DNA from: Sediminibacterium sp. C3
GTDB taxonomy: Bacteria > Bacteroidota > Bacteroidia > Chitinophagales > Chitinophagaceae
Assembly (NCBI RefSeq): GCF_000508085.1
Contig: NZ_KI669560.1
Coordinates: forward strand, 650,219-714,218
Length of the DNA stretch: 64,000 nt
Direction: 5' to 3'
Positions 1,298-62,788 of this stretch are shown here, piece by piece. Made by a program: the position numbers and the translations under genes. Each line of letters begins with the position of its first letter. The stretch's first letter is position 1. The notes under the pieces were generated by a model that searched no databases, had not been told where the DNA came from, and saw nothing but the letters and a program-made list of their open reading frames with translations.

Positions 1298-1489
1298 ATG
1301 ATTTCAAAAAGGGTCTTTAAATCACTATTCTTTTTAACTATTGTATTATCTGTTGCATCTTGTATTAAACAAACATTCATGCCACAAGATGAATTTTATG
1401 TTGAAAAAACATGGATTAAAGAAAATGGGAAAAACTATAAAGAAGGAATTCTTTTTATGTATACTAAAGAAAAAGTAAACAAGTGTTAA
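1298..1489 (+). pseudogene. N-terminal part of a frameshifted M23 lipoprotein
   Basis: This frame encodes 63 residues starting with a lipoprotein signal (MISKRVFKSLFFL..., lipobox VASC at about residues 19-22) and ends at TAA 1487-1489. It looks too short to be a complete product. The next frame, open from 1468, continues smoothly as an M23 peptidase that has no export signal of its own. Restoring one A in the A-run at 1470-1474 joins the two as ...KEKSKQVLTLDW..., giving a lipoprotein of about 438 residues. I read this as the 5' part of a gene broken by a one-base deletion. A sequencing error in the A-run is the alternative. Confidence 0.65.
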
Positions 1490-2613
1490 CATTAGATTGG
1501 TCAACTACAAAAAAAGCAATCATTAATAATATTTCATATACAGAGGTAAAATTTGTAGAAGGTTTAAATCACGAGCATGATAAGGGCATTAAAAGTTCAA
1601 ATAGTTCAGTTTCAACACAAATTCAATTTAGTCTTGTTTTTAGAAAAGTTAGTGATAAAATAGAGTCTGTTATTAAATATACTATTCCTAATGCAACCTT
1701 GGCTTTTTCAGATAGTGTTAGAAAGGGTACTATAGAAAGCTATCACACTTTTGACGGAAAAGTGTTAGATGTCTGGTTTACTGATTTTTCAACAAACAAA
1801 GTGATGAAGCGCAAAGAAATGCAAAATCAATCATTTTCAAACACTTCAATCCGTCAATTAGAACAAAAAATAAGGTCCAGAAATGTTAATGATCCAGAAT
1901 CGTTGTGTTATAATACAACAGAAAGCCAGTATGTATATTCTTGTATCAGTTTAGGGGCAAGTGCTGCTGGAGATTATAACATTGAGTGTGGTTGGAGGTA
2001 TATTGGAGAAGTTACATCTACATTTTGCTTTTCAGGGTCAGGAGGAACTGAAACTTGGCCACCTACAAGTGGTGGTGGAAATCAAACAGTACCACCTACA
2101 AAAACTCCTTGTCCTGGAGATGTAATTTTAAATCCAATAATTGCAAAATCAAATGCTACAAATATTAATGGTGGAAGATTTGGTCCGACTCGTAAGTATC
2201 CTAACGGTCAACCAAAAGAGCATAAAGGATTAGATATTTATGCAAAACCCAATACACCATTGTATGCTATTTTTAGTGGGGTGGTAACAAGATCAATTTC
2301 TATTTTTCAGCCTCAATATTATGGAAGCCCAACTTCATTTGGTAATTTAGTTGAAATAAAGAGTACTTTAGCTGATGGCCGTGTAATTAAAATCTTGTAC
2401 GCTCATTTAAATTCAACAAGTTTGACTGTTGATGACATAATTGATCAAGGACAGCAAATAGGCCTGAGTGGGAAAACCGGAAATGCACAAAATGTTATTT
2501 CGCCTCATGTTCATATTCAAGTTACTGAAAATGGTCAGAAAAAAAATCCGGAAAATTTTATTTCAACTAAATACAATCAGTTTGGATATTCTACAGGTAG
2601 CCCATGCAATTAA
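1483..2613 (+). CDS. M23/LytM-type metallopeptidase lipoprotein, main part (frameshifted from upstream signal)
   Basis: This frame (376 residues from GTG 1483) holds a beta-rich N-terminal region with the LDW motif, a Cys-containing CGWRYIGEVT segment at about 169-177, and a Gly/Pro-rich linker (SGSGG...TSGGGN, about 185-205). An M23 domain follows from about 225. The M23 zinc ligands are visible: H247 and D251 in HKGLDI and the HxH pair H342/H344 in PHVHIQ, plus H308 in YAHLN. M23 enzymes cut peptidoglycan cross-bridges or stem peptides. The signal peptide is in the other frame (1298-1489). The GTG start is probably artificial and the original gene began at 1298. The region is A+T-rich and accessory in character. 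Confidence 0.75.
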   Translation: MLTLDWSTTKKAIINNISYTEVKFVEGLNHEHDKGIKSSNSSVSTQIQFSLVFRKVSDKIESVIKYTIPNATLAFSDSVRKGTIESYHTFDGKVLDVWFTDFSTNKVMKRKEMQNQSFSNTSIRQLEQKIRSRNVNDPESLCYNTTESQYVYSCISLGASAAGDYNIECGWRYIGEVTSTFCFSGSGGTETWPPTSGGGNQTVPPTKTPCPGDVILNPIIAKSNATNINGGRFGPTRKYPNGQPKEHKGLDIYAKPNTPLYAIFSGVVTRSISIFQPQYYGSPTSFGNLVEIKSTLADGRVIKILYAHLNSTSLTVDDIIDQGQQIGLSGKTGNAQNVISPHVHIQVTENGQKKNPENFISTKYNQFGYSTGSPCN

Positions 2614-2636
2614 TCCACTTATATAAATCTCAATAT

Positions 2637-3179
2637 ATGAAGTTTAAATTATCATTTTATTTGGTCTTTATCGTATTAATAGCTATTTCATTTATAGTTA
2701 ATAGTCAAAGTATATCCCAACAAGAAAATTTGAATTTAGATTATTTATGGCTGAATCAGTTTGATATTAAGCCTCAATATTCACAAAATAATAATAATTC
2801 ACTTTTGATGAATGAATCTGAGTTTCAATTAAAATTTAATTTAAGTCTAAACGGGAATTCAGATTATTCGGAGGAGTTTGATTCAAATATGAATAATTAT
2901 TTTGGTAGTGGTATAGAGGTGTGGTTTATGGATAATATTCTGCAAGCCATGGAAGTAACTTCTAATTCTTACATATTTGAAATTACAAATGGAAATAGTA
3001 TTAGTGTTGGAGATAATATTAGTATTCTTTCTACTCAATTTCCTAATTCCTGGCTAAATAAAAATGAATCAGGAAAGATATTTGTTTTGCTTAAAAATAA
3101 TAATTCTGATATTGATATGAATTTAACATTTCATTATAATGTTAACTCCAACTTAATAACTAAAATTTCTGTGCAGTAA
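2637..3179 (+). CDS. Secreted hypothetical protein downstream of the M23 lipoprotein
   Basis: I chose ATG 2637 because it begins a clean signal peptide (MKFKLSFYLVFIVLIAISF..., cleavage near NSQS). An upstream ATG at 2604 overlaps the M23 gene and would put charged residues before it. The mature part, about 155 residues, is Asn/Ser-rich and probably beta-rich, with W-F-M-D and NSW segments. I recognise no family. Its position 23 bp after the peptidase gene, and its export signal, make it a candidate partner or periplasmic protector of that enzyme. This is inference only. Confidence 0.6.
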   Translation: MKFKLSFYLVFIVLIAISFIVNSQSISQQENLNLDYLWLNQFDIKPQYSQNNNNSLLMNESEFQLKFNLSLNGNSDYSEEFDSNMNNYFGSGIEVWFMDNILQAMEVTSNSYIFEITNGNSISVGDNISILSTQFPNSWLNKNESGKIFVLLKNNNSDIDMNLTFHYNVNSNLITKISVQ

Positions 3180-3197
3180 TTTCATAAATATAAAAAA

Positions 3198-3680
3198 ATG
3201 AGAAGATTTTTAATTATAGTAGCAGTATTTTTTTTCTCTCAATTTAATTCAAATTGTCAATTGAAATCTATAGTTGGTACGGTTTATAAGGAAATCAGTG
3301 ATATACCAATGCTAAGGGAGTATAAGATTGAGGAGGGCATTGCAATTGATGAAGATGAAAGCGGTAAAATATCCTTTATATTGATCAACAACGGGTTAAA
3401 TAAAAAAATAATATGCTCTGAATATCTTAGACCTCAATCAAGAAGAATATTAGCTATTCAAGAAATTGGTCAACTTTCTAAAAATAGTAAAGTAATTATG
3501 TCTAGGTGTAGAAAAGCGCAAAAAGATAATGGCTATATAATTGCAATAGTTGAAACTACACAGTCTGCTTACTTTAAAAAAGTTAAAAAGGCTTGGATTT
3601 TTAATAAAGTGCCTCAATCGTTTTCTGAAATTCCAACCAAGGGTATCGATTGTATTAATGATGAGTTTGATAATTTGTAG
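3198..3680 (+). CDS. Secreted hypothetical protein
   Basis: The 160-residue product has an N-terminal signal peptide (MRRFLIIVAVFFFSQFNSNC) that ends in Cys-Gln, so either signal peptidase could act. The rest alternates charged and hydrophobic strands (GKISFILINN, GYIIAIVETTQSAYF) and includes Cys residues near 74, 103 and 151. No family recognised. It follows the previous gene by 18 bp in the same direction and probably belongs to the same transcript as the M23 lipoprotein. Codon use is A+T-rich like its neighbours. Confidence 0.55.
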   Translation: MRRFLIIVAVFFFSQFNSNCQLKSIVGTVYKEISDIPMLREYKIEEGIAIDEDESGKISFILINNGLNKKIICSEYLRPQSRRILAIQEIGQLSKNSKVIMSRCRKAQKDNGYIIAIVETTQSAYFKKVKKAWIFNKVPQSFSEIPTKGIDCINDEFDNL

Positions 3681-3720
3681 TATGAAATTATTGAGAATTG
3701 GGCTTTTTAAAAAAAAAACT

Positions 3721-4143
3721 ATGTTTGATTTTAAAAAAATATTTCTCTTTTCAATGTTGTTTTTAGTAGTTAATGAAAAGCTTCATTCTCAAAATATAAA
3801 CTCTGAAAGAAAATTAATAGTTGGCACTTGGATTTCAACTGAAGGAGATTGGGTTTTTATTTTTGATAAAGATTCTTCTTGCAAAGAATATATGGCCAAA
3901 CAATTAATATCCAAATACTATTATAAGTTAACACCAGCTAATTCTTATTGCGGAAAAATTGCTAAAGTAAATCTTAATGACGAATCAATAAGCTATTTGC
4001 AATTAAATAATTTTGAAACAAAGGAAATTACTTGTTACGAAATTAATGGTATAGGAACTAAAACTCTAAGCATTACAGAGTACATGATGCCAGAACCAGC
4101 ATTATTTAGACGAAAAGTTGCAAAAACAATTCCAAAAAAATAG
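3721..4143 (+). CDS. Secreted lipocalin-like hypothetical protein
   Basis: I took ATG 3721 as the start because it opens a signal peptide (MFDFKKIFLFSMLFLVVNEKLHSQ). ATG 3682 is possible but would add 13 mostly basic residues. The mature domain starts LIVGTWISTEGDWVFIFDKD and carries strands typical of the small lipocalin-like proteins of Bacteroidetes (G-x-W near the start, ITEYMM later). No ligand or activity can be assigned. It is the last gene of the A+T-rich block. Guanylate kinase begins 26 bp later with a clearly different base composition. Confidence 0.55.
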   Translation: MFDFKKIFLFSMLFLVVNEKLHSQNINSERKLIVGTWISTEGDWVFIFDKDSSCKEYMAKQLISKYYYKLTPANSYCGKIAKVNLNDESISYLQLNNFETKEITCYEINGIGTKTLSITEYMMPEPALFRRKVAKTIPKK

Positions 4144-4169
4144 TCGTTTTTTGCAGAAACATATTTTGA

Positions 4170-4745
4170 ATGGGAGCTGATACTCGCAAAATCATCATTA
4201 TTGCCGCACCTTCCGGATCGGGTAAAACTTCTATAACACGCTATCTGTTACAGCAGCACCCCCTCCTTTCCTTGTCTATATCGGCTGCTACCAGAAAACC
4301 CAGAGGGGAGGAAAAAGACGGGGTTCATTATCATTTTATTTCGGAAGCGGAGTTTAAACAGAGAATTGAAGAAAATGCATTTGTAGAATGGGAAATGGTA
4401 TATGAAGGAAGTTATTACGGCACATTAAAGGCTGAATTGGAAAGAATCTGGAATCTTGGTAAAATTCCCATCCTTGATATTGATGTAAAAGGAGCCATTC
4501 ATTTACAAGATCAGTTTCCCAATCGTTGCCTGTCTATTTTTATAGAACCCCCTTCAGTAGAAGAATTAAAGAAAAGACTGGAAAGCCGGGGTACGGAAAC
4601 ACCGGAGAGCCTGGCAAACCGGGTGAATAAAGCCAGTTATGAGCTTTCTTTCAAAAGTCATTTTCACAAGAATATTCTGAATGACAATCTGGAGAAAGCT
4701 TGCAAAGAAACAGAAGAAGTAATCAAAGAATTCCTCGGTTGGTAA
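4170..4745 (+). CDS. gmk: Guanylate kinase
   Basis: This 191-residue protein phosphorylates GMP (and dGMP) to GDP with ATP, in the cytoplasm. The P-loop is at residues 13-21 (APSGSGKTS). The GMP-binding region follows with SISAATRKPRGEEKDGVHYHF, then EWEMVYEGSYYGT and DIDVKGA, and the lid arginines lie in KKRLESRGTET. Length is normal for bacterial Gmk. It marks the start of the core region after the A+T-rich block and is followed at 38 bp by an SDR gene in the same direction. Confidence 0.95.
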   Translation: MGADTRKIIIIAAPSGSGKTSITRYLLQQHPLLSLSISAATRKPRGEEKDGVHYHFISEAEFKQRIEENAFVEWEMVYEGSYYGTLKAELERIWNLGKIPILDIDVKGAIHLQDQFPNRCLSIFIEPPSVEELKKRLESRGTETPESLANRVNKASYELSFKSHFHKNILNDNLEKACKETEEVIKEFLGW

Positions 4746-4783
4746 ATTGCTTTGGCTTAAATTGAGTCTCTAAGCTTTTATCT

Positions 4784-5608
4784 ATGTCATCATTTGCCAA
4801 CAGAACTGTATTTATTACCGGTGCCAGCAGAGGGATCGGAAAAGCCATTGCTTTAAGACTGGCCAAAGAAGGAGCCAATATTGTAATTGCAGCCAAAAGT
4901 GTAGAAGAGGACCCCCGACTGGGAGGAACCATTTATTCTGCTGCTGAGGAAGTGGAAGCCGCTGGTGGTAAAGCACTGGCTGTGCAGGTAGACATCAGAG
5001 ACGAAGCACAGATTGCTGCAGCCGTACAGCAGGCAGTAGATAAGTTTGGGGGGATTGATGTTGTTATTAACAACGCATCCGCTATTTCTTTAACCAATAC
5101 CGAAAAAACAGAGGCCAAGCGGTTTGACTTAATGCAAAGTATTAATGTCAGGGGCACATTCCTGGTGGTAAAGCATTGTTTACCCTGGTTAAAAAAAGGA
5201 AACAATCCGCATATCATTACTTTGTCTCCACCCATTAGTTTAAAACCCAAATGGATGGGAGGACATATTGCCTATACGCTTACCAAATACAATATGAGTA
5301 TGCTGGCATTGGGCTGGGCGGCTGAGTTTAAGAATGATGGTATTGCCTCCAATGCTTTGTGGCCTAAAACCACCATTGATACAGCAGCTGTAAGAAATCT
5401 GCTGGGTGGTGAAGCATTGGCCAAAATGAGCCGTACACCGGAAATCATTGCAGACAGTGTGTATTATATTCTATCTAAAACAGGACTGGCTTATACAGGA
5501 AATACCTTCATTGACGAAGAAGTTCTTGCCAAGGAAGGTATTTCTAATTTAGATCAATATGCAGTTGTGCCCGGAGGACAATTGTATCCTGATTTGTTTG
5601 TTGATTAG
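4784..5608 (+). CDS. Short-chain dehydrogenase/reductase, HSDL2-like
   Basis: The 274-residue SDR has the cofactor motif TGASRGIG at 12-19, the NNAS motif (VVINNAS), and the catalytic Tyr-x3-Lys in AYTLTKY. The segment KSVEEDPRLGGTIYSAAEEV after the second strand is characteristic of hydroxysteroid dehydrogenase-like protein 2 (HSDL2) relatives, which have unclear physiological substrates. No sterol-carrier domain follows here. Its stop overlaps the stop of convergent lysS in a shared TTAG (5605-5608). Confidence 0.85.
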   Translation: MSSFANRTVFITGASRGIGKAIALRLAKEGANIVIAAKSVEEDPRLGGTIYSAAEEVEAAGGKALAVQVDIRDEAQIAAAVQQAVDKFGGIDVVINNASAISLTNTEKTEAKRFDLMQSINVRGTFLVVKHCLPWLKKGNNPHIITLSPPISLKPKWMGGHIAYTLTKYNMSMLALGWAAEFKNDGIASNALWPKTTIDTAAVRNLLGGEALAKMSRTPEIIADSVYYILSKTGLAYTGNTFIDEEVLAKEGISNLDQYAVVPGGQLYPDLFVD

Positions 5609-7131
5609 TCTTCGAATCGTTCAGGTCTCATCTGAGGGAACAGCAACACATCCTGAATGGAAGCCTGGTTGGTCATCATCATGCACAAACGATCAATACC
5701 AATTCCAATTCCGGAAGTTGGAGGCATTCCGTATTCGAGGGCACGTAAAAAGTCATAGTCGATAAACATGGCTTCATCGTCCCCTCTCTCCATTAGCTTA
5801 ACTTGTTCTTCAAAACGTTCCCGCTGGTCAATAGGGTCGTTTAATTCTGTGTAGGCATTCGCCAGCTCTTTCCCATTCACCATTAATTCAAAGCGTTCTA
5901 CCAAACCTGGTTTACTGCGATGTTTCTTGGTTAAAGGACTCATTTCAACCGGATAGTCTATAATGAAAGTGGGTTGCACATAAGTGTGTTCACTGGTTGC
6001 ACCGAAAATTTCATCAATCAGTTTGCCTTTTCCGATGGTTGGAGGTACATCAATTTTCAATTGCTTGCAAACTTCTCTCAGGCCTGCTTCATCCATTCCG
6101 CTAACATCCATGCCTGTATTCTCTTTAATGGCATCGTGAATGCTGATTCTTTTGAATGGTGCTTTGAAGCTTACGATTTTATCTCCCAATTGTACATCCG
6201 TAGTTCCGTGTATGGTTAAGGCAATCTTTTCGAATAGCTGTTCGGTTACTTCCATCATCCAGATATAATCTTTGTAGGCAGTGTACCATTCTAATACCGT
6301 AAACTCCGGATTGTGGGTTCTGTCCATTCCTTCATTTCTAAAGTTGCGGCTGAATTCATATACCCAGTCAAAACCACCTACAATCAGACGCTTCAAATAC
6401 AATTCGTTGGCAATTCTTAGGTAAAAAGGAACGTCCAGGGCATTGTGGTGCGTAATGAAAGGACGCGCGGCTGCCCCTCCGGGAATGGCCTGCAGAACCG
6501 GGGTGTCAACTTCAACAGCACCTTGTGAATTTAAAAAGTCACGAATGGTGTTGATGATTTTGGTTCTTTTAACAAAAGTGTCTTTTACATCCGGGTTAAT
6601 AATAAGGTCGGCATAACGCTGACGATATCTGAATTCCGGATCAGTTACTGCATCAAAAACATTTCCTTCTTCATCTCTCTTTACCACCGGTAGTGGCTTT
6701 AAAGATTTGGTAAGCAGTGTAATGGTTTGTGCATGTATAGATGTTTCTCCGGTCTTGGTGATAAAAGCAAAACCGGTACATCCGATAATATCCCCTAAAT
6801 CCAATCCGTGTTTTACAACTGTATCCCAGAATGACTTGTCTTCTTCCGGACAAATGTCATCTCGTTTTACATATAATTGAATAATGCCTTTACTATCCTG
6901 AATCTTGATAAAGAAAACTTTTCCTTTATCATTCATGCTCATAATTCTTCCTGCCACACAAAGATTGGTGAACTGATCTTTCTTCTCTTCGGTGTAGTTA
7001 TTTTTAATATCAACAGAAAAACTATTGACAGGATACAAGGGTGCGGGAAACGGATCAATTCCTGCTGCCTGCAATTTTGCAAGCTTCTCTCTTCTAATTA
7101 ATTCTTGTTCTGAAAAATGTACTTCGCTCAT
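5605..7131 (-). CDS. lysS: Lysyl-tRNA synthetase, class II
   Basis: The enzyme charges tRNA-Lys. It has an N-terminal OB-fold anticodon-binding domain (VAGRIMSMNDKGKVFFIKIQD) and a class II catalytic core with motif 2 (EFSRNFRNEGMD) and motif 3 (SGIGIGIDRLCMM). I use ATG 7131 (MSEVHFSEQELIRREKL), giving 508 residues, because LysS proteins usually begin so. An upstream in-frame ATG at 7161 lies inside the hairpin leader and would add ten unrelated residues. The stop is shared with the convergent SDR gene. Regulation may involve the leader hairpins at 7155-7226. Confidence 0.95.
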   Translation of the reverse strand: MSEVHFSEQELIRREKLAKLQAAGIDPFPAPLYPVNSFSVDIKNNYTEEKKDQFTNLCVAGRIMSMNDKGKVFFIKIQDSKGIIQLYVKRDDICPEEDKSFWDTVVKHGLDLGDIIGCTGFAFITKTGETSIHAQTITLLTKSLKPLPVVKRDEEGNVFDAVTDPEFRYRQRYADLIINPDVKDTFVKRTKIINTIRDFLNSQGAVEVDTPVLQAIPGGAAARPFITHHNALDVPFYLRIANELYLKRLIVGGFDWVYEFSRNFRNEGMDRTHNPEFTVLEWYTAYKDYIWMMEVTEQLFEKIALTIHGTTDVQLGDKIVSFKAPFKRISIHDAIKENTGMDVSGMDEAGLREVCKQLKIDVPPTIGKGKLIDEIFGATSEHTYVQPTFIIDYPVEMSPLTKKHRSKPGLVERFELMVNGKELANAYTELNDPIDQRERFEEQVKLMERGDDEAMFIDYDFLRALEYGMPPTSGIGIGIDRLCMMMTNQASIQDVLLFPQMRPERFED

Positions 7132-7154
7132 AAATTGGTTGTTCAAATTGGTAC

Positions 7155-7181
7155 AAAACAAAAGTCTCGCAGAAGCGAGAC
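7155..7181 (-). terminator. Terminator-like hairpin in the lysS leader
   Basis: On the minus strand a perfect 7-bp stem (GTCTCGC/GCGAGAC, loop of 4) is followed by TTTTGTTTT, as in an intrinsic terminator. It lies between a plausible promoter (7230-7260) and the lysS start at 7131, with its T-run ending 24 bases before the ATG. It could be an attenuator or the end of a short RNA. Confidence 0.5.
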
Positions 7182-7208
7182 CTTGTATATGGATGGGTTA
7201 GTAAGTAC

Positions 7209-7226
7209 AGGGAAACGCATTTCCCT
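7209..7226 (-). other. Second stable hairpin in the lysS leader
   Basis: A perfect 7-bp stem, AGGGAAA/TTTCCCT with the loop CGCA, lies just downstream of the predicted transcription start and about 28 bases before the terminator-like hairpin. The rest of the region between lysS (7131) and the next gene (7571) is A+T-rich and shows no open frame that I would support. Confidence 0.45.
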
Positions 7227-7229
7227 ACA

Positions 7230-7260
7230 CAATATTAAAAAGACTTTTAACTTATACAAA
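7230..7260 (-). promoter_or_regulatory. Candidate Bacteroidetes-type promoter for lysS
   Basis: On the minus strand TTTG (7260-7257) is followed after 19 bases by TAATATTG (7237-7230). This matches the Bacteroidetes sigma pattern TTTG-N19-TAnnTTTG except for one base in the second box. Transcription would start about 10 bases further on and run through both hairpins into lysS. Confidence 0.45.
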
Positions 7261-7570
7261 AATTTTTTTGAACAATTTTATTAACATTTTAAGCTCAAAT
7301 GTGAATTCAGAAAAATTTTTAGTGCATCATTAATTCAATTTTTAGAAGACTATTTACAATTTAAAATCAATTCATTTTTTTCATGATCCTCTGAAACATA
7401 TATGAATAAAGTGTTTCAGCGAAATGAAAAAATAGTTTTATTAAGACAACAACTTTTTATTTCCCCTTTTTGTAATGGAATTTTAATTGATAATTCAGCC
7501 AAGCGCTTTCAAAAAAAAATTTTCGGAAAAGCTTGTCTCACTACCTTTATCACCTCAAAAATTCACTCAA

Positions 7571-8518
7571 ATGAAGTTTCCGTCTCCTGTTTCCGTTTCC
7601 TGGATGTCTGAGTTTCTGGATGCAAAAGTTGCTGGGAATACCCGGGCAGAAATTTTGGGCATCAACGAAATTCATCGCGTAGAAAAAGGAGATATGGTTT
7701 TTGTTGATCATCCAAAATATTATGATACCTGTTTAAACAGCGCTGCTGATTTTATAATCATCAACACAGATGATGTAAATATTCCTGATGGTAAAACCAT
7801 TTTCATTGTTACAGATCCATTTGAATCTTATTTAAAAATTGTTCAGCATTTCAGTCCTTTTTTACCGGCTTCAAAATCCATTGACGATTCTTTAAAAGTT
7901 GGTGAGCATACGATAATCATGCCCAATGTATTTATTGGTAAAAATGTAGTTATCGGAAACAATTGCATCATTCATCCGAATGTTACGATACATGATAACA
8001 CCATCATTGGAAATGATGTTATCATACAGTCGGGCACTGTTATTGGCGGGGATGCATTTTACTACAACACCAAGAAAAATCGACCCGTTTGGTATAAAAA
8101 AATGTTGAGTTGTGGTAATGTTGTTCTGGAAGATTTTGTTGAGATAGGAACGGGCTGTATGATTGACAGGGGCGTAACTGCTGAAACCAGAATTGGCCAG
8201 GGTACCAAACTGGATAATATGGTTCATATTGGTCATGATGTTACCGTTGGAAAAAATTGTTTGTTTGCAGCCCAGGTGGGTATCGCAGGGGGAACCATCA
8301 TTGAAGATGGGGTTACGCTATGGGGACAGGTTGGCGTTAGCAAAACACTTACCATTGGATCCAATGCCGTAGTGTTGGCACAAAGTGGTGTTCCTTCCTC
8401 TCTGGCAGGAGGTAAAACTTATTTTGGTTATCCTGCTGAAGACGCTTCCATCAAACGCCGTGAGTTGGTATGGATTAAGCGAATTCCTGAACTCTGGAAA
8501 AAAGTGATGGAATCATAG
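7571..8518 (+). CDS. LpxD-like UDP-3-O-acylglucosamine N-acyltransferase
   Basis: I place the start at ATG 7571 (MKFPSPVSVSWMSEFLDAKV), giving 315 residues. The upstream extension from 7487 is unlike the family. The N-terminal domain is the LpxD uridine-binding type (VAGNTRAEILGINEIHRVEKGDMVF would be its core), followed from about residue 115 by a left-handed beta helix of hexapeptide repeats. The catalytic-type His lies in NMVHIGHDV, before CLFAAQVGIAGGT, as in LpxD. The likely reaction is N-acylation of UDP-3-O-acyl-glucosamine in lipid A synthesis. It stands apart from any lpx cluster and could be a second, specialised paralogue. Confidence 0.75.
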   Translation: MKFPSPVSVSWMSEFLDAKVAGNTRAEILGINEIHRVEKGDMVFVDHPKYYDTCLNSAADFIIINTDDVNIPDGKTIFIVTDPFESYLKIVQHFSPFLPASKSIDDSLKVGEHTIIMPNVFIGKNVVIGNNCIIHPNVTIHDNTIIGNDVIIQSGTVIGGDAFYYNTKKNRPVWYKKMLSCGNVVLEDFVEIGTGCMIDRGVTAETRIGQGTKLDNMVHIGHDVTVGKNCLFAAQVGIAGGTIIEDGVTLWGQVGVSKTLTIGSNAVVLAQSGVPSSLAGGKTYFGYPAEDASIKRRELVWIKRIPELWKKVMES

Positions 8519-38598: not shown

Positions 38599-38608
38599 AA
38601 TCAGATAT

Positions 38609-39169: not shown

Positions 39170-39177
39170 AGCACAAC

Positions 39178-40557: not shown

Positions 40558-40596
40558 CAATAAAAGAAAAAATTATACTTTTAACAAGTACTCAAA

Positions 40597-40896: not shown

Positions 40897-40903
40897 CCCT
40901 TTA
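40872..40903 (+). terminator. Intrinsic terminator-like hairpin at the end of the HxlR remnant
   Basis: AAAGGGT-C-ATAC pairs with GTAT-A-ACCCTTT around a 7-base loop and is followed by TACTTTTAT. It overlaps the HxlR stop codon and shares the GGGTTATACTT core with the hairpin at 38567-38598. Confidence 0.55.
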
Positions 40904-41015
40904 CTTTTATGTCTGCTCCCCTTATTGACGAAAGATGCAGCTTTTCTCTTATCTAAAGGCTATTATTTTATTATAAAACATATTGTTAGTTCATTTAATA
41001 TTATTGGAACAATAA

Positions 41016-41327: not shown

Positions 41328-42741
41328 GGCTTCTTTTTGTTTTATAATTTCCGATTTTAATATTTGAATCAATATTTTTTCTTGAATTCAAATATTGATA
41401 TACTCCTTTTGGGGAATAGCCACTGGTTATTCCAAAATAACTGGTTGAGGGTACAACAAGTCTCTCATTATTAGTTCTTGCAAAATTGAAAACATCTAAC
41501 GCGTAGTTAGTACAATTATAATCATCTAACTTATACTTAGCATTATTAGCATATGCAATTGCAATGTTAACTGCAGAATTAAAATCTATTTCTGGCATGT
41601 TATCCATAATTATACTAGCATCTTCCTCTCGTTCAAGATTTGGAGCCCCATCGTTTTTAATGACACTTGACATATATTGCATAGTCAATGATGCATAAGA
41701 ATTATTGGGGTAAAATCCGATGGATTGACTAATACTTTGATTACCATAAGATTTTTCAAATGTTAAATAAACATGTCCAGCATTAGAAAAAGTCGATAAA
41801 ACTGTTGGATCTGAATTGTCAGGAATATCTACACTAAGTTTAAGTGAGAATTTTGCTCCATTACTTGGAATATTCTCAAAACATTTAAAAATTTTTAAAA
41901 TATCAACAATTGGACGATCTTGATCAAAATATATAACAAAGTCTTCTTGTTGAATATTTTGAGTTTCATTACCACCACCACCACAATTACTTTTTAGGAT
42001 ATTGGATTCATTATCAATATCAATTGTAGTTTGACATTGATCTCCAGTGCAGGTTGTATATAAATATCGGCTACTTTCTGTTGTTGTTCCGTCTGAATAA
42101 AAGTAAGTAGTTACTAAAAACCAATTAGTGCAGTTTACTTCAGTGGATTTTATGTTTTCTAGTGATGAAAATGTAGAGTTTGCTTTTAAATTTCCTTCAA
42201 GTTTGGGTAATTGATTTTTTAGATGTCTAGTTTTAGTCAGTGACCCGTTTTCATAATTAAATTCCATAATAAATCTTCCATCAATATGTATTGTAGATAT
42301 TAATAAGTTTTGTTTATCGGAGACCTTTGTGTAATCATTGAAATAATCTAAAATTATTTCAGAGCAATTTTTATTTAAATTATTTCCAATTATTTCTACT
42401 AAAAACCCTGATTTTATCTTTTGATTTTTAAACTGTAGAACAACCTTTAATTCTTTTCTTTTTTCTGTTTTATTAATAGTTTTATAATCTTGATTAATAT
42501 CAATTAGTAAAAGTTTGTTATAAGAATCAAGTTTTATCTCTTGAGATTTATTCCATTCTATGTTTTTAATAAGTGAATCAATCATTTTATTATTGTGAAG
42601 AATAGAATTATAATGTTTTACTGTTGAAAAATATTCCAATACATCTTTTTTGTATAAAAGACTAATCTCATCATTATTAAATTCTTTTTTGCAAGAACTA
42701 AAACTTAATGGTATTAAAATAAGTAGGATAAAGATTCTCAT
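41311..42741 (-). CDS. Lipoprotein with permuted NlpC/P60- or papain-like C-terminal domain
   Basis: The 476-residue protein has a lipoprotein signal (lipobox SFSSC, Cys17), a beta-rich region with the NIEW motif (W63), a Cys-containing NCTNWFLVTTYFYSDG stretch (203-218) and a linker with GGGG (254-257). The C-terminal domain has NAGHVYLTFE (H323) before DYNCTNYALDVF (C410). This His-first, Cys-last order and the N-C-T-x-Y pattern are those of circularly permuted NlpC/P60/LRAT-type cysteine hydrolases. It probably acts outside the cell or at its surface on a peptide or amide bond. The overall plan matches the M23 and JAB lipoproteins of this window. Confidence 0.6.
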   Translation of the reverse strand: MRIFILLILIPLSFSSCKKEFNNDEISLLYKKDVLEYFSTVKHYNSILHNNKMIDSLIKNIEWNKSQEIKLDSYNKLLLIDINQDYKTINKTEKRKELKVVLQFKNQKIKSGFLVEIIGNNLNKNCSEIILDYFNDYTKVSDKQNLLISTIHIDGRFIMEFNYENGSLTKTRHLKNQLPKLEGNLKANSTFSSLENIKSTEVNCTNWFLVTTYFYSDGTTTESSRYLYTTCTGDQCQTTIDIDNESNILKSNCGGGGNETQNIQQEDFVIYFDQDRPIVDILKIFKCFENIPSNGAKFSLKLSVDIPDNSDPTVLSTFSNAGHVYLTFEKSYGNQSISQSIGFYPNNSYASLTMQYMSSVIKNDGAPNLEREEDASIIMDNMPEIDFNSAVNIAIAYANNAKYKLDDYNCTNYALDVFNFARTNNERLVVPSTSYFGITSGYSPKGVYQYLNSRKNIDSNIKIGNYKTKRSHGECN

Positions 42742-42944
42742 ATATTTTTATTTCTACCTGAAAATAATACAATTTAGTCCTTTGAATTAACCACTACAAA
42801 AAATAGGGTGATTCATACAAAATTGCTTTATCAATATTTTTTGTACAAAATAGCAGGTCATAGAAAATTTGGAAAAGATGCAACTATAAATTTCAATCTA
42901 CCAGTGAGGATATTAATTAATGCCAGTAAGACTTTGGTAAAAGG

Positions 42945-42976
42945 TAAAAAGAAAAAGAGGTCATTTCTGACCTCTT
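42945..42976 (-). terminator. Terminator after tRNA-Asn
   Basis: On the minus strand AAGAGGTCA-GAAA-TGACCTCTT forms a perfect 9-bp stem followed by a TTTTTCTTTTT tract. It lies 12 bases beyond the tRNA 3' end. Confidence 0.8.
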
Positions 42977-42987
42977 GCCTTGTTTTG

Positions 42988-43061
42988 CTCCCCCTTCAGG
43001 ACTTGAACCTGAGACCCTCTGATTAACAGTCAGATGCTCTAACCAACTGAGCTAAGGAGGA
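42988..43061 (-). tRNA. tRNA-Asn (anticodon GTT)
   Basis: A 74-base cloverleaf on the minus strand: acceptor TCCTCCT pairs with AGGGGGA, D-arm AGCTCAGTTGGTTAGAGC, anticodon loop CTGTTAA, and T-arm TCAGG-TTCAAGT-CCTGA, with discriminator G. CCA is not encoded. Its 3' end faces the accessory segment at 39.2-42.8 kb. Translated protein frames over it are spurious. Confidence 0.95.
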
Positions 43062-56183: not shown

Positions 56184-56384
56184 GCACCACTTTTTGGTCC
56201 ACAATTTTTTTCCAAAAATTAATACCAGATTTTCAATTTCGTAACAAGCACTTGTGTCTGTAACGCCAATTGGATTATAATTACCCTAAAAATCAAAAAG
56301 TTTTATATAGAGTATAATGAAAATTTAGAATTGAATAGTCAGATTAAATTTTTAAATTTATTTCAGAGAAATACTTCAAAAAGT

Positions 56385-57140
56385 ATGAAAATGAGGGTAT
56401 TGATTTATTGCTTATTAATTTGCAATCTTTGCAAGGGCCAAGCTCCAGATTTAACTAACTGGAAATTAGACACACTACCATTAGAAGATAGAATATACAA
56501 AGCAAATAATTCAGATAATAATTGGTTTTTTGAAAAATCTGGTAATGTTTGGGAAGTAAAAAGAAAGGCTAATAGATTAGAAAGGGGGGATAGTCTGCCT
56601 GTATTAAGTAAAAGAATAAGGAAATTAATCGATTCAATTAAAGGAATTAAGTTTTTTAAGAAAATATCTTCTGGTTATTTAATGGGGGTTAATAATGGTG
56701 AGTTTGGAGGGGGATTGTATTATATTGATTTATCAAGAAGAAAGCTGCGTGAAATTCACCAAAGTTTTAGAATTCAAGAAATTTTTGAATTTCAATCAAA
56801 AGTGTATGCATCTGTAGGTGTATATAATGGTCAAATAATTGAAATTTATGAGGAAAATGAGCATTGGAAATACAAATCTGTATGTATTTTAATTGGAACA
56901 CCAAGATTAATTGTTGATTATAACGATGAAAAATTAATTCTGACTAGTCAACATTTATCGGTACTTGGTAAAGATTTAAAGGTTACTGAATTACTTAAAG
57001 CTCCATTTTATTGGGGAATGTTATATCCTTCTTCTATTTTAATTGATGGTGACAATATATATATAGCAATGCGGGGAGGCGTATTGAAAATAAGTCAATT
57101 TATTACCAAACCTATGTTCGAATGGTTTACACCAAAATAA
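56385..57140 (+). CDS. Secreted hypothetical protein
   Basis: ATG 56385 opens a signal peptide (MKMRVLIYCLLICNLCKGQA). The mature part has about 230 residues with repeated short strands (NNWFFEKSGNVWEVKRK, GLYYIDLSRRKLREI, VYASVGVYNGQIIEIYEEN, NIYIAMRGGVLKI), suggesting a small beta-propeller. No family recognised. It is convergent with the broken JAB lipoprotein gene, ends 72 bp from it, and shares its A+T-rich composition. Confidence 0.6.
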   Translation: MKMRVLIYCLLICNLCKGQAPDLTNWKLDTLPLEDRIYKANNSDNNWFFEKSGNVWEVKRKANRLERGDSLPVLSKRIRKLIDSIKGIKFFKKISSGYLMGVNNGEFGGGLYYIDLSRRKLREIHQSFRIQEIFEFQSKVYASVGVYNGQIIEIYEENEHWKYKSVCILIGTPRLIVDYNDEKLILTSQHLSVLGKDLKVTELLKAPFYWGMLYPSSILIDGDNIYIAMRGGVLKISQFITKPMFEWFTPK

Positions 57141-57212: not shown

Positions 57213-57652
57213 TTAGTTTTTACAAGGCCCATCAATTACTGAATTTTCATTTAACTTTTTTTCTTGCCAGTTTTTTGATTCGTTAGATCCTTTGAACATA
57301 GTCAATCCTGCATCGTAATCTTTTATTAATTTTAAAAAGTTAGTTTCCCAAGATTTGCTATGGTTACTACTAGCTAGGTTATAATCTGCTTTATATTTAT
57401 TTTCAAAAGACTGTAAATCCATATCATCTGAAAGATGATCTACATAAAAATTTATAAATTTTTCAATATCATTTATTTTAAACACATATGAACCATATGT
57501 ACTTACAACACCAAGTGTGAAATCACTATAAATCTTATACGGATCTTTTGCGGAATTACTAGCAACTATTTTACCTAATTGTTTTAGGTCACCTGGTGAT
57601 GGCATTGAATTTAGGCCAGAATAATGAGAATGTATAATGCCAAAAGTCCTTG
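57213..57652 (-). pseudogene. C-terminal part of an IS-split JAB/JAMM lipoprotein
   Basis: Read from the IS3 left end (57652) to the stop at 57213, the frame is TRTFGIIHSHYSGLNSMPSP, then GDLKQLGKIVAS and on to the C-terminus ENSVIDGPCKN. HSH-x8-S-x2-D is the zinc motif of JAB/JAMM peptidases (MPN+). Start ATG 57605 lies after the HxH, so any product from it would be inactive. The N-terminal part is at 61925-62788. The two parts join in frame after removal of IS3 and IS21. Confidence 0.75.
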
Positions 57653-57691: not shown

Positions 57692-58099
57692 ATGACAGAA
57701 AAGGTTCAAAAAAAGTCAAAGCCTAGTTTCCCCAGTAGCCAACCATATAGGCGGAGAAGCGAAGAGGAAATGTTAGAAATTGTCCGAGAAATTCAGGAAA
57801 GGGGAATGCCAAAGAAAACGGCATGCCGTAAATATGGAGTCAATAGGAACACCCTAAGGCTATTTATTTTAAAGCAATCCACAAAGGATTTATCCCAAAA
57901 TCATTCATTAGATTTATTATCAACTATGAATGAAAATCAACAACACTTGGCATTGTCCAAAAAGATTAAGGAGCTAACTGGTGCACTTGAAAAATCTGAG
58001 TTAAAGGTCCTTACCCTTCAAACTATGATCCAAGTTGCTGAGGACGACCTCAAAATTAAGATTAGAAAAAAGTCTGGTACCAAACAGTCAAAAGAATAA
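57692..58099 (+). CDS. IS3-family transposase OrfA (second copy)
   Basis: The 135-residue protein has a helix-turn-helix (RRRSEEEMLEIVREIQERG, KTACRKYGVNRNTLRLFIL) and a C-terminal leucine-rich helix. It is longer than the OrfA of the other two IS3 copies and belongs to another subgroup. The slippery site A AAA AAG is at 58066-58072. Confidence 0.88.
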   Translation: MTEKVQKKSKPSFPSSQPYRRRSEEEMLEIVREIQERGMPKKTACRKYGVNRNTLRLFILKQSTKDLSQNHSLDLLSTMNENQQHLALSKKIKELTGALEKSELKVLTLQTMIQVAEDDLKIKIRKKSGTKQSKE

Positions 58100-58989
58100 G
58101 GCAAAGAAATCCAAAAGCATCACTGGAGAGTATTTGTGCACTGTTTGGTGTGACAAGGCAAGCATTTTATGATGCTCAAAAGCAAGAACAAAATATCACG
58201 ATTGCTCAAATGATAGTTCTCTGTTTGGTCCGGGAGGCCAGGTTGATTATGCCAATGATTGGAACCCGGAAATTGGTTCATTATTTGGCAGGGCCACTGC
58301 AGGATCATGGGATAAAAATGGGAAGAGATCAGCTATTTAATCTACTGAGACACCATGGTCTGCTTGTCCGAAAGAGACGCAGGATGATAAAAACTACTGA
58401 TTCATTTCATTGGTTAAAGAAGTATCCGGATTTAACGACAGGGCTTAATTTAAATGCATCAGAACAGCTTTGGGTGTGTGATATTACCTATATAAGAACC
58501 ATTAATGGGTTTAGTTATTTGAGCTTAATAACGGACGCATATTCAAGATTGATAGTAGGATACTGTTTATACCCAACGCTGGAAGCTGTTGGTTGCTTAA
58601 AGGCCTTAGAAATGGCAATCAATAACAGAAGCAAGGGCTGTAAATTGATACACCATTCTGACAGAGGAATCCAATATTGCTCGGCGGCATATGTAGATGT
58701 ATTGAAACTAAACCATATTGAAATTAGTATGACACAGAGTGGTAGCCCGTATGAAAATGCTCTGGCTGAAAGAATGAATGGTATTCTGAAAAACGAATTT
58801 TATCCCAAACGAGTTTATCAAAATCATAAAGAGGCTGTCAAGGTTTTAACTTCTAACATTGAGGTATATAATTCTAAACGACCTCATTTAAGTTTAGGCT
58901 ATCTCACACCACGGTCAGCACATCAAATGACAGGTGATATTAATAAAAGCTGGAAGAGTTATCCCAGGAAAAAGAAACAGGTTTTTTAA
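58066..58989 (+). CDS. IS3-family transposase OrfB (second copy, via -1 frameshift)
   Basis: The -1 frame is open from the slippery site to 58989. The part from ATG 58150 has 279 residues. Catalytic D-D-E residues are in WVCDITYIRT, HHSDRGIQYC and LAERMNGILKNEF, and the ending PHLSLGYLTPRSAH is typical. It looks intact, so this copy may be active. Confidence 0.92.
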   Translation, partial: KKVWYQTVKRIRQRNPKASLESICALFGVTRQAFYDAQKQEQNITIAQMIVLCLVREARLIMPMIGTRKLVHYLAGPLQDHGIKMGRDQLFNLLRHHGLLVRKRRRMIKTTDSFHWLKKYPDLTTGLNLNASEQLWVCDITYIRTINGFSYLSLITDAYSRLIVGYCLYPTLEAVGCLKALEMAINNRSKGCKLIHHSDRGIQYCSAAYVDVLKLNHIEISMTQSGSPYENALAERMNGILKNEFYPKRVYQNHKEAVKVLTSNIEVYNSKRPHLSLGYLTPRSAHQMTGDINKSWKSYPRKKKQVF

Positions 58990-59375: not shown

Positions 59376-60116
59376 TTATTGATTTGTCTTGGTTTTTTTT
59401 CTGCGTAATGATTCACCTTTTAGTTCTATTCTATGCCCATTTGCTGTCAGTCTGTCAAGGATGGCATCTGCAAGTGTAGGGTCATTGATGTATTCATACC
59501 ATTTTGCAACTGGCAATTGAGAAGTTACGATGATACTTTTTTTGCCATAACGGTCTTCGAGTAGTTGTAAAAGCGTGAGTCGTATTTCTTGACTTAAGTT
59601 TTGTAAACCAAAATCGTCAAGAATAATGAGTGTCTGTTTTTCAAGGTGGTTTAATAGTTTAATGTAAGAGCCATCCAGTTTGGATAGGGTTACTTTTTCA
59701 ATTAGCCGATTCATATTCAAATAGGTTGTCTTGTAACCCTGCAGACAAGCCTGATGTCCTAAGGCGCAGGCGAGGAAGCTTTTTCCGCAACCAGTTGGGC
59801 CAGTAATCAGTACGTTTTCTCCTTGCTGGATATAACGTCCTTCCGCTAGTAACCCCAGTTGTTGCTTAGTTAGGTTTCTGGCAGGGCTACATTCAATTTG
59901 ATCAATCGAAGCAGCCAAGCGCAGTTTAGCTAGTTTTAGGTAATAAGCCGTCTTTTCATTCATTCGGCTGAGCTGTTCGGACTGAACCAATTGGGCAACT
60001 AAATCATGTCCTTCGAGCTGTTGATCTAAAGGGAGTTCCATTTGTGATTTATAGGACTGATACATCCCATTGAGTCGGAGTTGTTGTAATTGTTCCAGGG
60101 TTTGTGTTGTATTCAT
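59376..60116 (-). CDS. istB: IS21 helper ATPase IstB
   Basis: I use ATG 60116 (MNTTQTLEQLQQLRLNGMY), giving 246 residues. The upstream in-frame ATG at 60140 overlaps istA. AAA+ motifs: Walker A in ITGPTGCGKSFLA, Walker B in TLIILDDFG, and sensor-like TSQLPVAKW. IstB promotes target selection and strand transfer by IstA. It follows istA with near overlap. Confidence 0.93.
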   Translation of the reverse strand: MNTTQTLEQLQQLRLNGMYQSYKSQMELPLDQQLEGHDLVAQLVQSEQLSRMNEKTAYYLKLAKLRLAASIDQIECSPARNLTKQQLGLLAEGRYIQQGENVLITGPTGCGKSFLACALGHQACLQGYKTTYLNMNRLIEKVTLSKLDGSYIKLLNHLEKQTLIILDDFGLQNLSQEIRLTLLQLLEDRYGKKSIIVTSQLPVAKWYEYINDPTLADAILDRLTANGHRIELKGESLRRKKTKTNQ

Positions 60117-60136
60117 ATATGTTGGTTTGATGACAA

Positions 60137-61672
60137 TCATTGATATTGTTCTTTTCCTCTAATGTTTTCGTGAAGTGGTATGGGGGTATTAGAAGTGAAG
60201 AGCATTTTGTCGAGGCCACGTTCTAAAATATTTTTAATCATAGTATAGTTAATACGAGTACCCAATAAAGCACGGCTGCAAGCTGCTTCAAGTCGGTCGG
60301 CACCATATTTTCTTTGTAGCTGTAACATTCCAAAACAAGCTTTATAGTTTTGTTCTATGTAAATACTGTTTTCAAGCATCAATGCCGCAGCACGGGAAGT
60401 AGACAGGCCCACTTTAGCTGCTTGTTCCAGCAGTGTTTCTTTATTCCAGCCTTTAATTTCTTTCATGCGCTGATGATGTGGCGGCATATGTTCATCAAGG
60501 GTGGTATAAGCGTTTTGGTGTGTTTTGCGCAGATGCATTGCAATGCGCTGATGGTCAAAGTAAACTTCTACTACCCGGTTGTCGTAAAGTACTTTTACTT
60601 TTTTGCCTACATATTGGAAGGGTACACTGTAATAATGATAGTTTTCTGTTAGTTGTACATGATAGTTCCGCTGTACAGTTAACATAACCGCTTTCTTAGG
60701 AGAAAATGCTTCACAGGGAAGAGGTCGTAGCGTTGCTTTTTCCTGAAGGTCGTAATAGTACCATCGGCTATGTACTGTGTTCTTATAGGGTTTATCATTG
60801 AGTATAAGTAGCTGCTGGTACATTGCCTGATTAAGGGCTTTGATACTGGTAAAGTGGTGATGACGTAAGGGGGCATAAATATGCGTATAGATAATATTTA
60901 CCGCACGCTCTACCATGGCCTTGTCTCTTGGACTATAGGGCCTGGTTGCACTAAAAGTAGTACCATAGTGTTCTCCGGCTTGGTTGCACATCTCAGTAAA
61001 TACAGGCTCATATTTACTGGGGCGTATAACGGCTGTCTTTAAATTATCGCATAAAATAGTGGCAGGGCTGCCTCCATAGAACTGGAGCATTTTATTGAAG
61101 CAGGTGGTGAGATCTGCCGTCTGTTGGGTAGCTACAGCATAACAAAAAATCAACCCGCTGTAAGGAAGGATAGACACAAAGACTTCACAGAAGATTTGTT
61201 CGCCCGTTTGCTCATCAACATAAAATGGTTTTTTGCCAGCAAAGTCTACCATGATCATATCACCTGGCGTATACTCTAGGTGCATGGATACATCACTGTT
61301 GCGTTGATATTCCTTTAGGTGATAACAGAACTGACTGTATCCATAACCATCAGGGTAGTCCACCAGATACTCATGCCAAAGGAGCTGTCGGGTTACCCCT
61401 GTTTTTGAGAGTTCATGAGCTTTGACTTTAAAATACTGAAACAAGCTTTGTAGGCGTTGCTCGTTGTGATCTAATACGGCATTATTATATGCAGCATCGG
61501 CTAGTTCCTTGTTTGAAAAAGCATCAGTAGACACATTGATCCTAGAAAGATATTTACGTACACTGTTACGACTTATACCCGTTCGGCGTACAATCTCTTT
61601 AATGGCAACTCCATCTCTTTTTAATTGTAAAATTTGTTTTACGTGATCCATTGCAATAGGCTTTTGTGACAT
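60137..61672 (-). CDS. istA: IS21 transposase IstA
   Basis: The 511-residue protein has an N-terminal helix-turn-helix (VKQILQLKRDGVAIKEIVRR, TGISRNSVRKYLSRI). The rve/DDE core carries D in MIMVDFAGKKPF, D in LCDNLKTAV, and E in DKAMVERAVNI, and a C-terminal beta domain follows. It appears full length and is followed by istB. Confidence 0.93.
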   Translation of the reverse strand: MSQKPIAMDHVKQILQLKRDGVAIKEIVRRTGISRNSVRKYLSRINVSTDAFSNKELADAAYNNAVLDHNEQRLQSLFQYFKVKAHELSKTGVTRQLLWHEYLVDYPDGYGYSQFCYHLKEYQRNSDVSMHLEYTPGDMIMVDFAGKKPFYVDEQTGEQIFCEVFVSILPYSGLIFCYAVATQQTADLTTCFNKMLQFYGGSPATILCDNLKTAVIRPSKYEPVFTEMCNQAGEHYGTTFSATRPYSPRDKAMVERAVNIIYTHIYAPLRHHHFTSIKALNQAMYQQLLILNDKPYKNTVHSRWYYYDLQEKATLRPLPCEAFSPKKAVMLTVQRNYHVQLTENYHYYSVPFQYVGKKVKVLYDNRVVEVYFDHQRIAMHLRKTHQNAYTTLDEHMPPHHQRMKEIKGWNKETLLEQAAKVGLSTSRAAALMLENSIYIEQNYKACFGMLQLQRKYGADRLEAACSRALLGTRINYTMIKNILERGLDKMLFTSNTPIPLHENIRGKEQYQ

Positions 61673-61734
61673 CGCTCCCTTGGTTTAGGGGTGCAAAAAA
61701 CATCATTCAGCGCTATACATTGAATTGCCTACTG

Positions 61735-61924
61735 GGGTCAACATGCCGGAATGACAGAAAACCCAGACTAAATAAAACAAAAAACAGAGGGGTCAACATG
61801 CCGGAATAAAATCAAAACACCTTAATACAGCATTAATTTAGAAAATTAAAAGGTGGGGTGAACATCCCGGAACGGGGGGTGAGCATGAAACGGAATGAGG
61901 GGTCAACATGATCCGGAATCTACA
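61735..61924. repeat. Repeated IstA-binding-type motifs at the IS21 right end
   Basis: Five imperfect copies of GGGGTSAACATnnCCGGAA lie at about 61735, 61793, 61855, 61876 and 61899. Two inverted counterparts lie at the left end (59280-59325). Multiple terminal repeats are known for IS21 elements and probably bind the transposase. Between istA and these repeats no coding frame is seen. Confidence 0.65.
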
Positions 61925-62788
61925 GTTAAAGTGTATGAAATTTTCATTTTCGTTACCTTTCACTAGACTATATTCAAAATCACCTGAAGCGTTTTTGGTT
62001 ATTACATATCCTTCTTCATTTGTTTGATTGACTTTCTTTGATAAATCTTGGATATTAGCAACGAAATTAGTATCAGCACTAATTGTTTTCATTGAACCAC
62101 ATGGATCATTACCTGTTGATTCATTTGATGTTGAATTATCTCCACCACCACCATAACTGGTAGTTTCAGGATTTTGGAATGTTAAAAAATCATTGTAATA
62201 AGCTTTATCTTGTAACATAAAAAAAAGATTCCAAAAGTCTAATTTTGCATTACTTGAAGGTATATAACCTATTACAAAGACTTCTGGCAATGGTTCGTTA
62301 GCAATGTCTTTGGATGTTATTGCTGAAGTAGATGTGAAAGAATTTGAAAAACTGGTTTTTTGATTTATCCATTTACCATCCACAACTATCATTTCATTTT
62401 CTAAAATTCCATTTAAATCACGAATAATAACACGTCGCTTCCTCGATTCAGCAGGTAATATTTTATCAAATTCAATAAACTTTATTGCCTCATGTCCTTT
62501 TGAATCTCCATAGACTAAAAATTGCCCTGGAGTATTTAATTCAACTAAATAAACATGATATTGAGTTCCATCTATTTTGCTAAACGTATTATTTTGCCCT
62601 TTCGCCCAATTAATTTTGTTGAATTGTTCTAGCGGAATTTTACCTTTTAAAATATTATACGCTGATAAAAGATCATGTTTTATTACAGTTTGATGAGTTA
62701 TTTTCTGACAACTAAAAAGGGTTAATAAACTAATAGAAATGAATAAGATTCCTCTGGAAATCATTGTGGTTTTATAAAATATATTCAT
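61925..62788 (-). pseudogene. N-terminal part of an IS-split JAB/JAMM lipoprotein
   Basis: From ATG 62788 (or ATG 62764, which gives a shorter signal) the protein has a lipobox LFSC, a beta-rich region with the KINW motif, DLNGILENEMIVVDGKW, a PEVFVIGYIPSS stretch, a YGGGGD linker and the start of the JAB fold (NEEGYVITKNASGDFEYSLVKG). It then reads F-I-H-F-N and runs into the IS21 end, which adds 28 foreign residues to a stop at 61838. A truncated lipoprotein without catalytic residues could still be exported. Confidence 0.7.

Follow-up and report, generated by a model that had tools for sequence, protein, structure and literature searches.

Why should enzymes as different as an M23 metallopeptidase, a putative permuted papain-like enzyme and a JAB/JAMM domain be found at the ends of lipoproteins that otherwise look to be built to one plan? 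The question is posed by three loci, here termed A, B and C, in a 64,000 nt stretch of Sediminibacterium sp. C3 (NZ_KI669560.1 positions 650,219-714,218; ‘the window’ below, its genome being labelled G000). An earlier note on this DNA drew attention to them as lipoprotein loci in A+T-rich accessory segments, with a lipobox, a conserved W, a Gly linker and hydrolase motifs, and proposed domain swapping with the logic of polymorphic toxins. Loci and motifs are present as described, and the segments are indeed low in GC (26-32% where A, B and C lie, 33-43% in most other 1-kb steps). The proposal itself has gained in substance: one N-terminal family bears five recognisable kinds of enzyme, two exchanges can be seen in DNA, and downstream genes track the C-terminal class. 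The reading that we consider likely is that these are polymorphic toxin-immunity cassettes on lipoproteins with enzymes acting mainly in the envelope, toxicity, immunity and delivery being inferred. Below, D and E are paralogues of A elsewhere in its own genome, L-numbers denote other loci, G1047 is a comparison genome of the same genus, and class names such as X1 and U112 are labels coined in this analysis.

Locus A, on the forward strand, is in two frames with one frameshift between them. A 63-aa first frame with the lipobox and the start of the N-terminal domain (1298-1489) ends at a stop, and a 376-aa second frame (1483-2613) comprises the remaining constant N-terminal domain to the Gly linker (1483-2080) and an exchangeable C-terminal domain (2081-2613) ending ...SPCN. 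That the latter is an M23 metallopeptidase, as the earlier note had it, is firmly supported (Pfam M23, E=1.5e-18, 67.2 bits versus a cut-off of 28.7), its nearest solved relatives being TagE, other M23 peptidases and lysostaphin-type enzymes. The N-terminal region matches two paralogues in the same genome (2.7e-14 and 2.2e-12), which lie side by side at C4:3.16 Mb and end differently: D is an intact protein of 476 aa with a JAB-type C-terminal domain, and E is of GH19 type and is broken early on by a stop and a frameshift.

How widely is this N-terminal region distributed? In the genus, E<=1 is reached in six of 61 genomes, of which two are strong matches. Among 244 genomes of the family 36 match at the same loose threshold, and five matches with E<0.005 in four other genomes were accepted; among 394 family genomes eight match at E<=0.02, its own genome included and one being spurious. 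Class-wide, 12 of 345 genomes match at E<=0.05, four of these (its own included) at E<1e-9, and another family gave 23 of 161 genomes at E<=0.01, at least one spurious. A class-wide search in which the profile still contained signal peptides (12 of 395 genomes) mostly hit signal peptides, and the profile was cut to the mature part. The 161-genome search yielded 28 places, of which two (G667, G559) were already included and 19 others were used; L093, L101, L103, L105, L106, L110 and L111 were excluded because they are fragments, lie at contig ends or are spurious, L103 being by eye a sialidase-like protein. L063, the antisense of a large open reading frame (ORF), and L015, by eye a sigma factor, were likewise dropped as spurious. 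One further genome, G1045 (L147, E=0.045), is member-like by eye and is uncounted. The accepted members are thus scattered patchily across three family-level groups of Bacteroidia (f1, f61, f75).

At E<=0.01 no Pfam model matches more than seven of the 34 members (that one, SprT-like, being for a C-terminal domain) and no NCBIfam model matches more than one, so that the shared N-terminal domain goes unnamed in both collections. It can be recognised by a near-invariant W, two Cys and the Gly linker. In an alignment of 29 N-terminal regions, B and C standing outside it, the [DEN]-W motif keeps its W in at least 90% of the rows. By pattern, 24 of the 34 members have a lipobox-like Cys in frame with the remainder; that of A is in the other frame and that of E precedes the stop.

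The exchange of what follows the linker can be seen directly in DNA, and twice. From position 1 to 2080 the window is 99.9% identical to G1047; both have the break in their reading frames at one and the same point, and the alignment stops within the Gly-linker codons. The next 1.6 kb (2081-3705), with the M23 domain and two exported-looking genes, has no counterpart in G1047. There the place is taken by a GH19 domain, which is not in frame with the sequence before the linker, and by a single gene whose product looks exported; from 3706 to 5997 the two genomes match again, at 96.2%. The GH19 domain of G1047 is homologous to that of E (4.7e-45), and the gene downstream of it to the one downstream of E (1.1e-14). 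Within the swapped segment the first gene after A (2604-3179, forward strand) is, from its position and hydrophobic N-terminus, the candidate immunity gene of the M23 cassette, and a second (3198-3680, forward strand) has an N-terminus that is signal-like by eye. A third gene (3550-4143, forward strand), shared with G1047 from 3706, is related to the GH19-adjacent gene of that genome (phmmer, 3.2e-10), and so the M23 locus of the window still carries an orphan gene of the GH19 kind. The second swap is between D and E: their similarity (82% over 852 bp) sets in 72 nt ahead of the start codon of D, ends at the DPC codons and beyond these falls to background. On a larger scale, a tree of 34 N-terminal regions requires 18 changes of C-terminal class, with a minimum of 12 and a shuffled mean of 19.9 (25 of 200 shuffles were as low), and hence C-terminal class hardly follows N-terminal descent; many branches of this tree are weak (14 of 31 open) and its ends are long, that of B the longest.

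What are the enzymes? With C taken as two, phmmer at E<1e-3 sorts 36 C-terminal pieces into clusters of 11, 9, 2 and 2 plus 12 singles, two of the singles being the halves of C. Five kinds can be recognised, M23, GH19, JAB, SprT-like and PPPDE-like, along with others of no known kind. SprT-like PF10263 matches seven of the 34 members, with a weak profile match (0.01) to Spartan, and HExxH is invariant in all 12 aligned rows of the class, to which L141 was assigned through a weak match (0.0023) and its motif by eye. Of the nine aligned JAB rows, locus D included, every one has the catalytic residues E, HxH, S and D; their Pfam matches are weak (0.001-0.01), three being to Prok-JAB and one each to Toxin-JAB1 (E=0.0035), RadC and DUF4329, and a comparison of the class with solved structures gave no match. 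Among solved structures, endolysin-type enzymes come closest to the GH19 domain of E (1.6e-17 and 3.3e-17). L125 and L137 share a class without recognised identity, the domain of L127 is nuclease-like by eye only, and that of L132 is labelled HetC by its motif, Pfam giving only VWA7_N and DUF6765. L123 has a further JAB-type lipoprotein (6633-7829, reverse strand) whose N-terminal region is of another sort and which has, by eye, its own relative of the neighbouring downstream gene; this would be the same toxin class on another carrier.

In 33 of the 34 members a gene overlaps the end of the lipoprotein gene or starts no more than 129 bp behind it, and the stretch fetched for the 34th stops inside such a gene. 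All 17 pairs of homologous downstream genes (E<1e-3) are between loci of the same C-terminal class, where permutation gives a mean of 3.1 (p ~5e-5); they include the cross-genus pairs D/L119 (6.9e-12), L125/L137 (2.2e-12) and L113/L114 (4.9e-4) and, from two genomes of one genus, L113/L116 (1.2e-26). A strongly hydrophobic N-terminus is present in 30 of 33 downstream proteins and in 69 of 164 neighbours (the comparison set with partner genes also removed), the threshold having been set after the values were seen. By eye there are five tandem copies of the downstream gene in L136, three in L139, and in L119 repeated units comprising the last residues of the toxin and the partner gene. Position, co-segregation with C-terminal class and the tandem or orphan copies are the usual marks of immunity genes, and on these grounds such a role for the partners may be proposed.

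A further feature common to otherwise unrelated ends is a Cys within the last six residues, in 28 of the 34 members and in many C-terminal classes; C has it too. Among 190 neighbour proteins used as decoys it occurs in six (five of 187 once three that turned out to be family-related are removed), and in none of 33 partner genes. The tail Cys played no part in choosing C-terminal cut points; these were chosen by eye with the help of the head Cys, whose frequency is therefore no test. The pair suggests a disulfide between head and tail across the inserted enzyme.

Do B and C belong with A? The earlier note envisaged a shared ancestry of all three N-terminal regions, to be checked by a profile search and a listing of C-termini. 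Profile searches brought out the family of A, with its unrelated C-termini, but left B and C unfound in their own genome, both in a run at E<=1 and in one at E<=10, and early profiles had no match to either. Deeper profiles place both in the right register with weak P values (B 0.009 and 0.02; C 0.025 and 0.12). With a HMMER profile of 32 rows, full-length B tops the non-family sequences (E=0.04), and the N-terminal parts alone lie among the decoys (B 0.57, C 0.67). In two decoy-calibrated profile comparisons (188 decoys) B ranked first of 190 both times and C fifth and seventh. The first of these, in which none of 100 shuffles reached the score of B and one of 100 that of C, retained the Cys start and Gly end shared by B and C and so favoured them; in the second, with the shared ends removed, B is still first (22.5 versus 20.1). 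The local P of the N-terminal region of B is 0.0085, its composition being odd. Structure prediction without alignments gave pLDDT (predicted local distance difference test) values of 34 for B (476 aa) and 36 for A (376 aa), too low for fold comparison. The ancestry claim thus stands strongly for A and modestly for B; for C it is not shown, the family traits present there being the overall plan, the Gly linker, a DPC start and a terminal Cys.

For B (41311-42741, reverse strand), an intact lipoprotein of 476 aa ending ...GECN, the C-terminal domain, with its GH and NCxN motifs, comes to the rescue. It has no Pfam match of its own and is homologous to that of L126 (pairwise search, 5.6e-4), which matches PPPDE, a permuted papain fold (E=0.0029; the PDB match to a PPPDE protein is weak, 0.56). 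Of the alternatives offered in the earlier note, permuted NlpC/P60- or papain-like, it is the permuted papain-like label that is plausible by this route. L126 lies where the N-terminal profile matches at 3.6e-13 across one stop, with an open frame running from the second half of the N-terminal domain into the papain-like domain. It is an accepted carrier, so the C-terminal kind of B occurs on a member of the family. B belongs to the system by its C-terminal domain and, more weakly, by its N-terminal region. Overlapping its end is the gene of a multi-pass membrane protein (41016-41372, reverse strand), a candidate immunity gene. A crude hydropathy count gives it about three membrane segments, the same as for the gene behind the same-class domain of L126; pairwise comparison of downstream genes showed no homology between the two.

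Locus C, on the reverse strand, is interrupted by two insertion sequences (IS) and uninterrupted in G1047. Its upstream piece (61838-62788) has the lipobox, the N-terminal region, the Gly linker and the first 57 JAB residues, the last residues of the lipobox ORF being insertion sequence; the remaining JAB/JAMM domain (HSHYSGLNSMPSPGD) is at 57213-57629 and ends ...GPCKN, its ORF being 57213-57605 with the frame open somewhat further upstream. Between them are IS3-type transposase genes (57692-58989, forward strand; Pfam rve, HTH_Tnp_1) and IS21-type IstA/IstB genes (59376-61672, reverse strand; Pfam IstB_IS21 1.5e-62, rve). The C-terminal piece bears an HxH...PSxxD motif and matches our own JAB profile at E=1.5e-5, the uninterrupted copy of G1047 doing so at 2e-7; beyond one true JAB protein and the other half of C (0.31) the next sequence is at 0.65, and the JAB/JAMM assignment of the earlier note can be retained.

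Order-wide searches with the single proteins of C and B matched one of 99 genomes for C, with no acceptable relative outside its own genome, and three of 99 for B, the two matches elsewhere being partial, weak and not accepted. In the metagenome-assembled genome Sphingobacteriia bacterium 24-36-13 the first 58 residues of B are present at a contig end at 95%. Plasmids searched by tblastn with D and B gave no match, viral contigs matched D only through its first 22 residues and C not at all, and PADLOC run on six pieces returned no match.

Do the loci move as a whole? Along the stretch compared, the identity of G000 to G1047 has a median of 90.6%, and it reaches 99% or more in 24 of 150 segments of 500 bp; 21 of the 24 fall in two islands, -3292 to 4705, which holds A, and 55255 to 67269, which holds C. 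Such islands point to recent replacement between species. They also hold ordinary genes, by eye acyl-CoA synthetase-like and guanylate kinase-like. B adjoins a tRNA-Asn gene (42987-43061), and since G1047 has, instead of the interval at B (38488-42986), some 29 kb that include a phage-type integrase, the tRNA-Asn site is probably an integration hot spot.

How might such proteins work? The lipobox would take the protein across the inner membrane and anchor it in the envelope, with location in the outer membrane and at the surface a further supposition. The constant domain and Gly linker would then present an exchangeable C-terminal enzyme. The Cys that often stand at the start of the enzyme and at the end of the protein would probably form a disulfide staple, by which one carrier could accommodate unrelated folds. 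Enzyme and following gene would be exchanged jointly through recombination at the linker, of which the DNA shows two cases. The M23, GH19, JAB, SprT-like and permuted-papain enzymes might, at a guess, reach neighbouring cells by contact or in membrane vesicles and there would attack peptidoglycan or envelope proteins; the producer's own enzyme would presumably be neutralised by the product of the next gene, a small and in most cases exported or membrane-bound protein. The near-identical islands between genomes about 91% alike suggest that homologous recombination carries loci from one species to another in stretches of several kilobases.

Several features sit uneasily with toxin-immunity cassettes. 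In the genome of the window only B and D are open, A being frameshifted, E having a stop and a frameshift, and C its two insertion sequences; the GH19 replacement copy of G1047 is out of frame as well. Thirteen of the 17 homologous partner pairs are JAB loci within one family-level group, so that related loci are counted repeatedly. No same-strand ORF of at least 70 aa was found in the kilobase behind C, and the genes downstream of L112, L115 and L118 are not exported-looking. The targets of JAB and papain-like domains need not be in the envelope, and according to a 2012 survey toxin JAB domains may be nucleases (PMC3482391). For L115 and L118, given their non-exported-looking downstream genes, the C-terminal domains may act in the cytoplasm.

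Could the proteins then have ordinary duties? That they are envelope-remodelling or nutrient-scavenging enzymes sharing an anchor domain, with downstream genes for regulators or chaperones, is an explanation we regard as unlikely. The recognised C-terminal domains are hydrolases and peptidases with plausible house-keeping roles, and A, D and E adjoin related response regulators, so that expression may answer a signal. In A this is a LuxR-type regulator encoded divergently (409-1128, reverse strand; Pfam Response_reg E=4.6e-17), 49% identical over 239 aa to that of D; the homologue beside D is of full length, and E has a C-terminal fragment only, 81% identical to the regulator of D over 74 aa. 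House-keeping genes would not, however, be expected to be so patchily spread (eight of 394 genomes of the family, with one spurious, and in the other family 23 of 161, with one or more spurious), and recent exchange, orphan or tandem partners, frequent inactivation and class-specific partners typify conflict systems.

Swapped outer parts and recent interspecies exchange would look alike in DNA if what is being varied were the surface itself, toward phages, predators or hosts, with enzyme activity incidental; catalytic residues invariant in the two aligned classes (JAB, HExxH) argue against it, as do the homologous downstream genes that accompany the same class, for which antigenic variation has no need, and we hold this to be quite improbable. 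Least probable of all is that these are effectors of a dedicated machine, be it a type VI secretion system (T6SS), a contractile tail or the type IX system (T9SS), that incidentally have a lipobox, for although polymorphic C-terminal domains of such kinds do occur in these systems (PMC3482391) and the TANFOR toxins of Bacteroidetes have been proposed to be T9SS substrates (PMC7073777), 24 of 34 members have the lipobox-like Cys in frame, neither TANFOR (TIGR02542) nor any secretion-tail model matched any of the 34 in NCBIfam at E<=0.01 (whether the release contains these is unchecked), and the T6SS sheath PF05943 is absent from G000 at E<=0.001 with E. coli as positive control, a search for a single T6SS component that did not extend to T9SS or contractile tails.

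To what known system, then, are lipoprotein-borne toxin-immunity cassettes closest? SitA/SitI of myxobacteria are lipoprotein toxins with conserved N-terminal and unrelated C-terminal domains and a downstream immunity gene; SitA homologues are reported only from Myxococcales and only with traAB, and their C-termini are typically cytoplasm-acting nucleases (PMC5562445, PMC8546572). By these descriptions the likeness extends to the lipoprotein, the constant/variable plan, the adjacent downstream gene and several cassettes per strain. In contrast, the hosts here are Bacteroidia, the partners are mostly exported or membrane proteins, and in place of nucleases the recognised domains are peptidases and wall hydrolases, M23, GH19, JAB, SprT-like and PPPDE-like. 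The family may be likened to SitA in how it works, membership being not shown. TANFOR proteins share the phylum Bacteroidota, a constant N-terminal domain, variable C-terminal toxins and a downstream immunity gene, and are described as large and often Fn3-bearing, with mostly nuclease toxins and hypothesised T9SS export (PMC7073777). Lineage-specific constant N-terminal domains with variable C-termini also characterise APD1 and APD2, Microscilla-N and MafB-N as the survey describes them; APD1 and APD2 of Amoebophilus follow a lipobox, and are set apart by a predicted action on the eukaryotic host, and Microscilla-N is reported there from one species (PMC3482391). On the side of the enzyme there is a likeness to Tox-JAB-1/Imm65, a Bacteroidetes JAB toxin with a lipoprotein immunity protein (PMC3482391): one of the nine JAB rows here matches Pfam Toxin-JAB1, as given above, but the carrier there is an RHS protein, and no match to Imm65 was found at E<=0.01 among the 33 downstream proteins. 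Of the features by which the same survey recognises polymorphic toxins (PMC3482391), the family has the constant N-terminal domain, C-terminal exchange, orphan and tandem copies and, by position and co-segregation only, the class-specific neighbour.

Our searches of open-access literature brought up no description of this carrier. That it stands for an unnamed, Bacteroidia-wide lipoprotein toxin system, with a carrier and Cys-to-Cys ‘socket’, SitA-like but aimed at the envelope, delivered by contact or vesicles and spread by whole-locus replacement, is a more tentative proposition, to which we would give somewhat less than an even chance. Bacteroidota are common in soils, waters and guts, and to our knowledge few of their weapons have been described beyond T6SS, TANFOR and secreted pore-formers. 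A carrier that accepts unrelated enzymes at a fixed junction offers both a search profile and a list of candidate antidotes, M23 versus GH19 at one locus in two related genomes is a natural allelic swap for work on kin discrimination, and the family opens to test the question of whether a lipoprotein toxin needs dedicated machinery for its delivery.

Other neighbours complete the picture. A PAS-domain protein (window 1-332, continuing to the left; Pfam on the G1047 copy, L152:6370-7083) adjoins the response regulator of A. Convergent with the end of C is an exported-looking protein (56331-57140, forward strand), propeller-like by eye and without a Pfam match. IS3-type transposase genes are also found near B (39425-40557) and to the right of C (63004-63998), with Pfam rve for 39790-40557 and 63288-63998.

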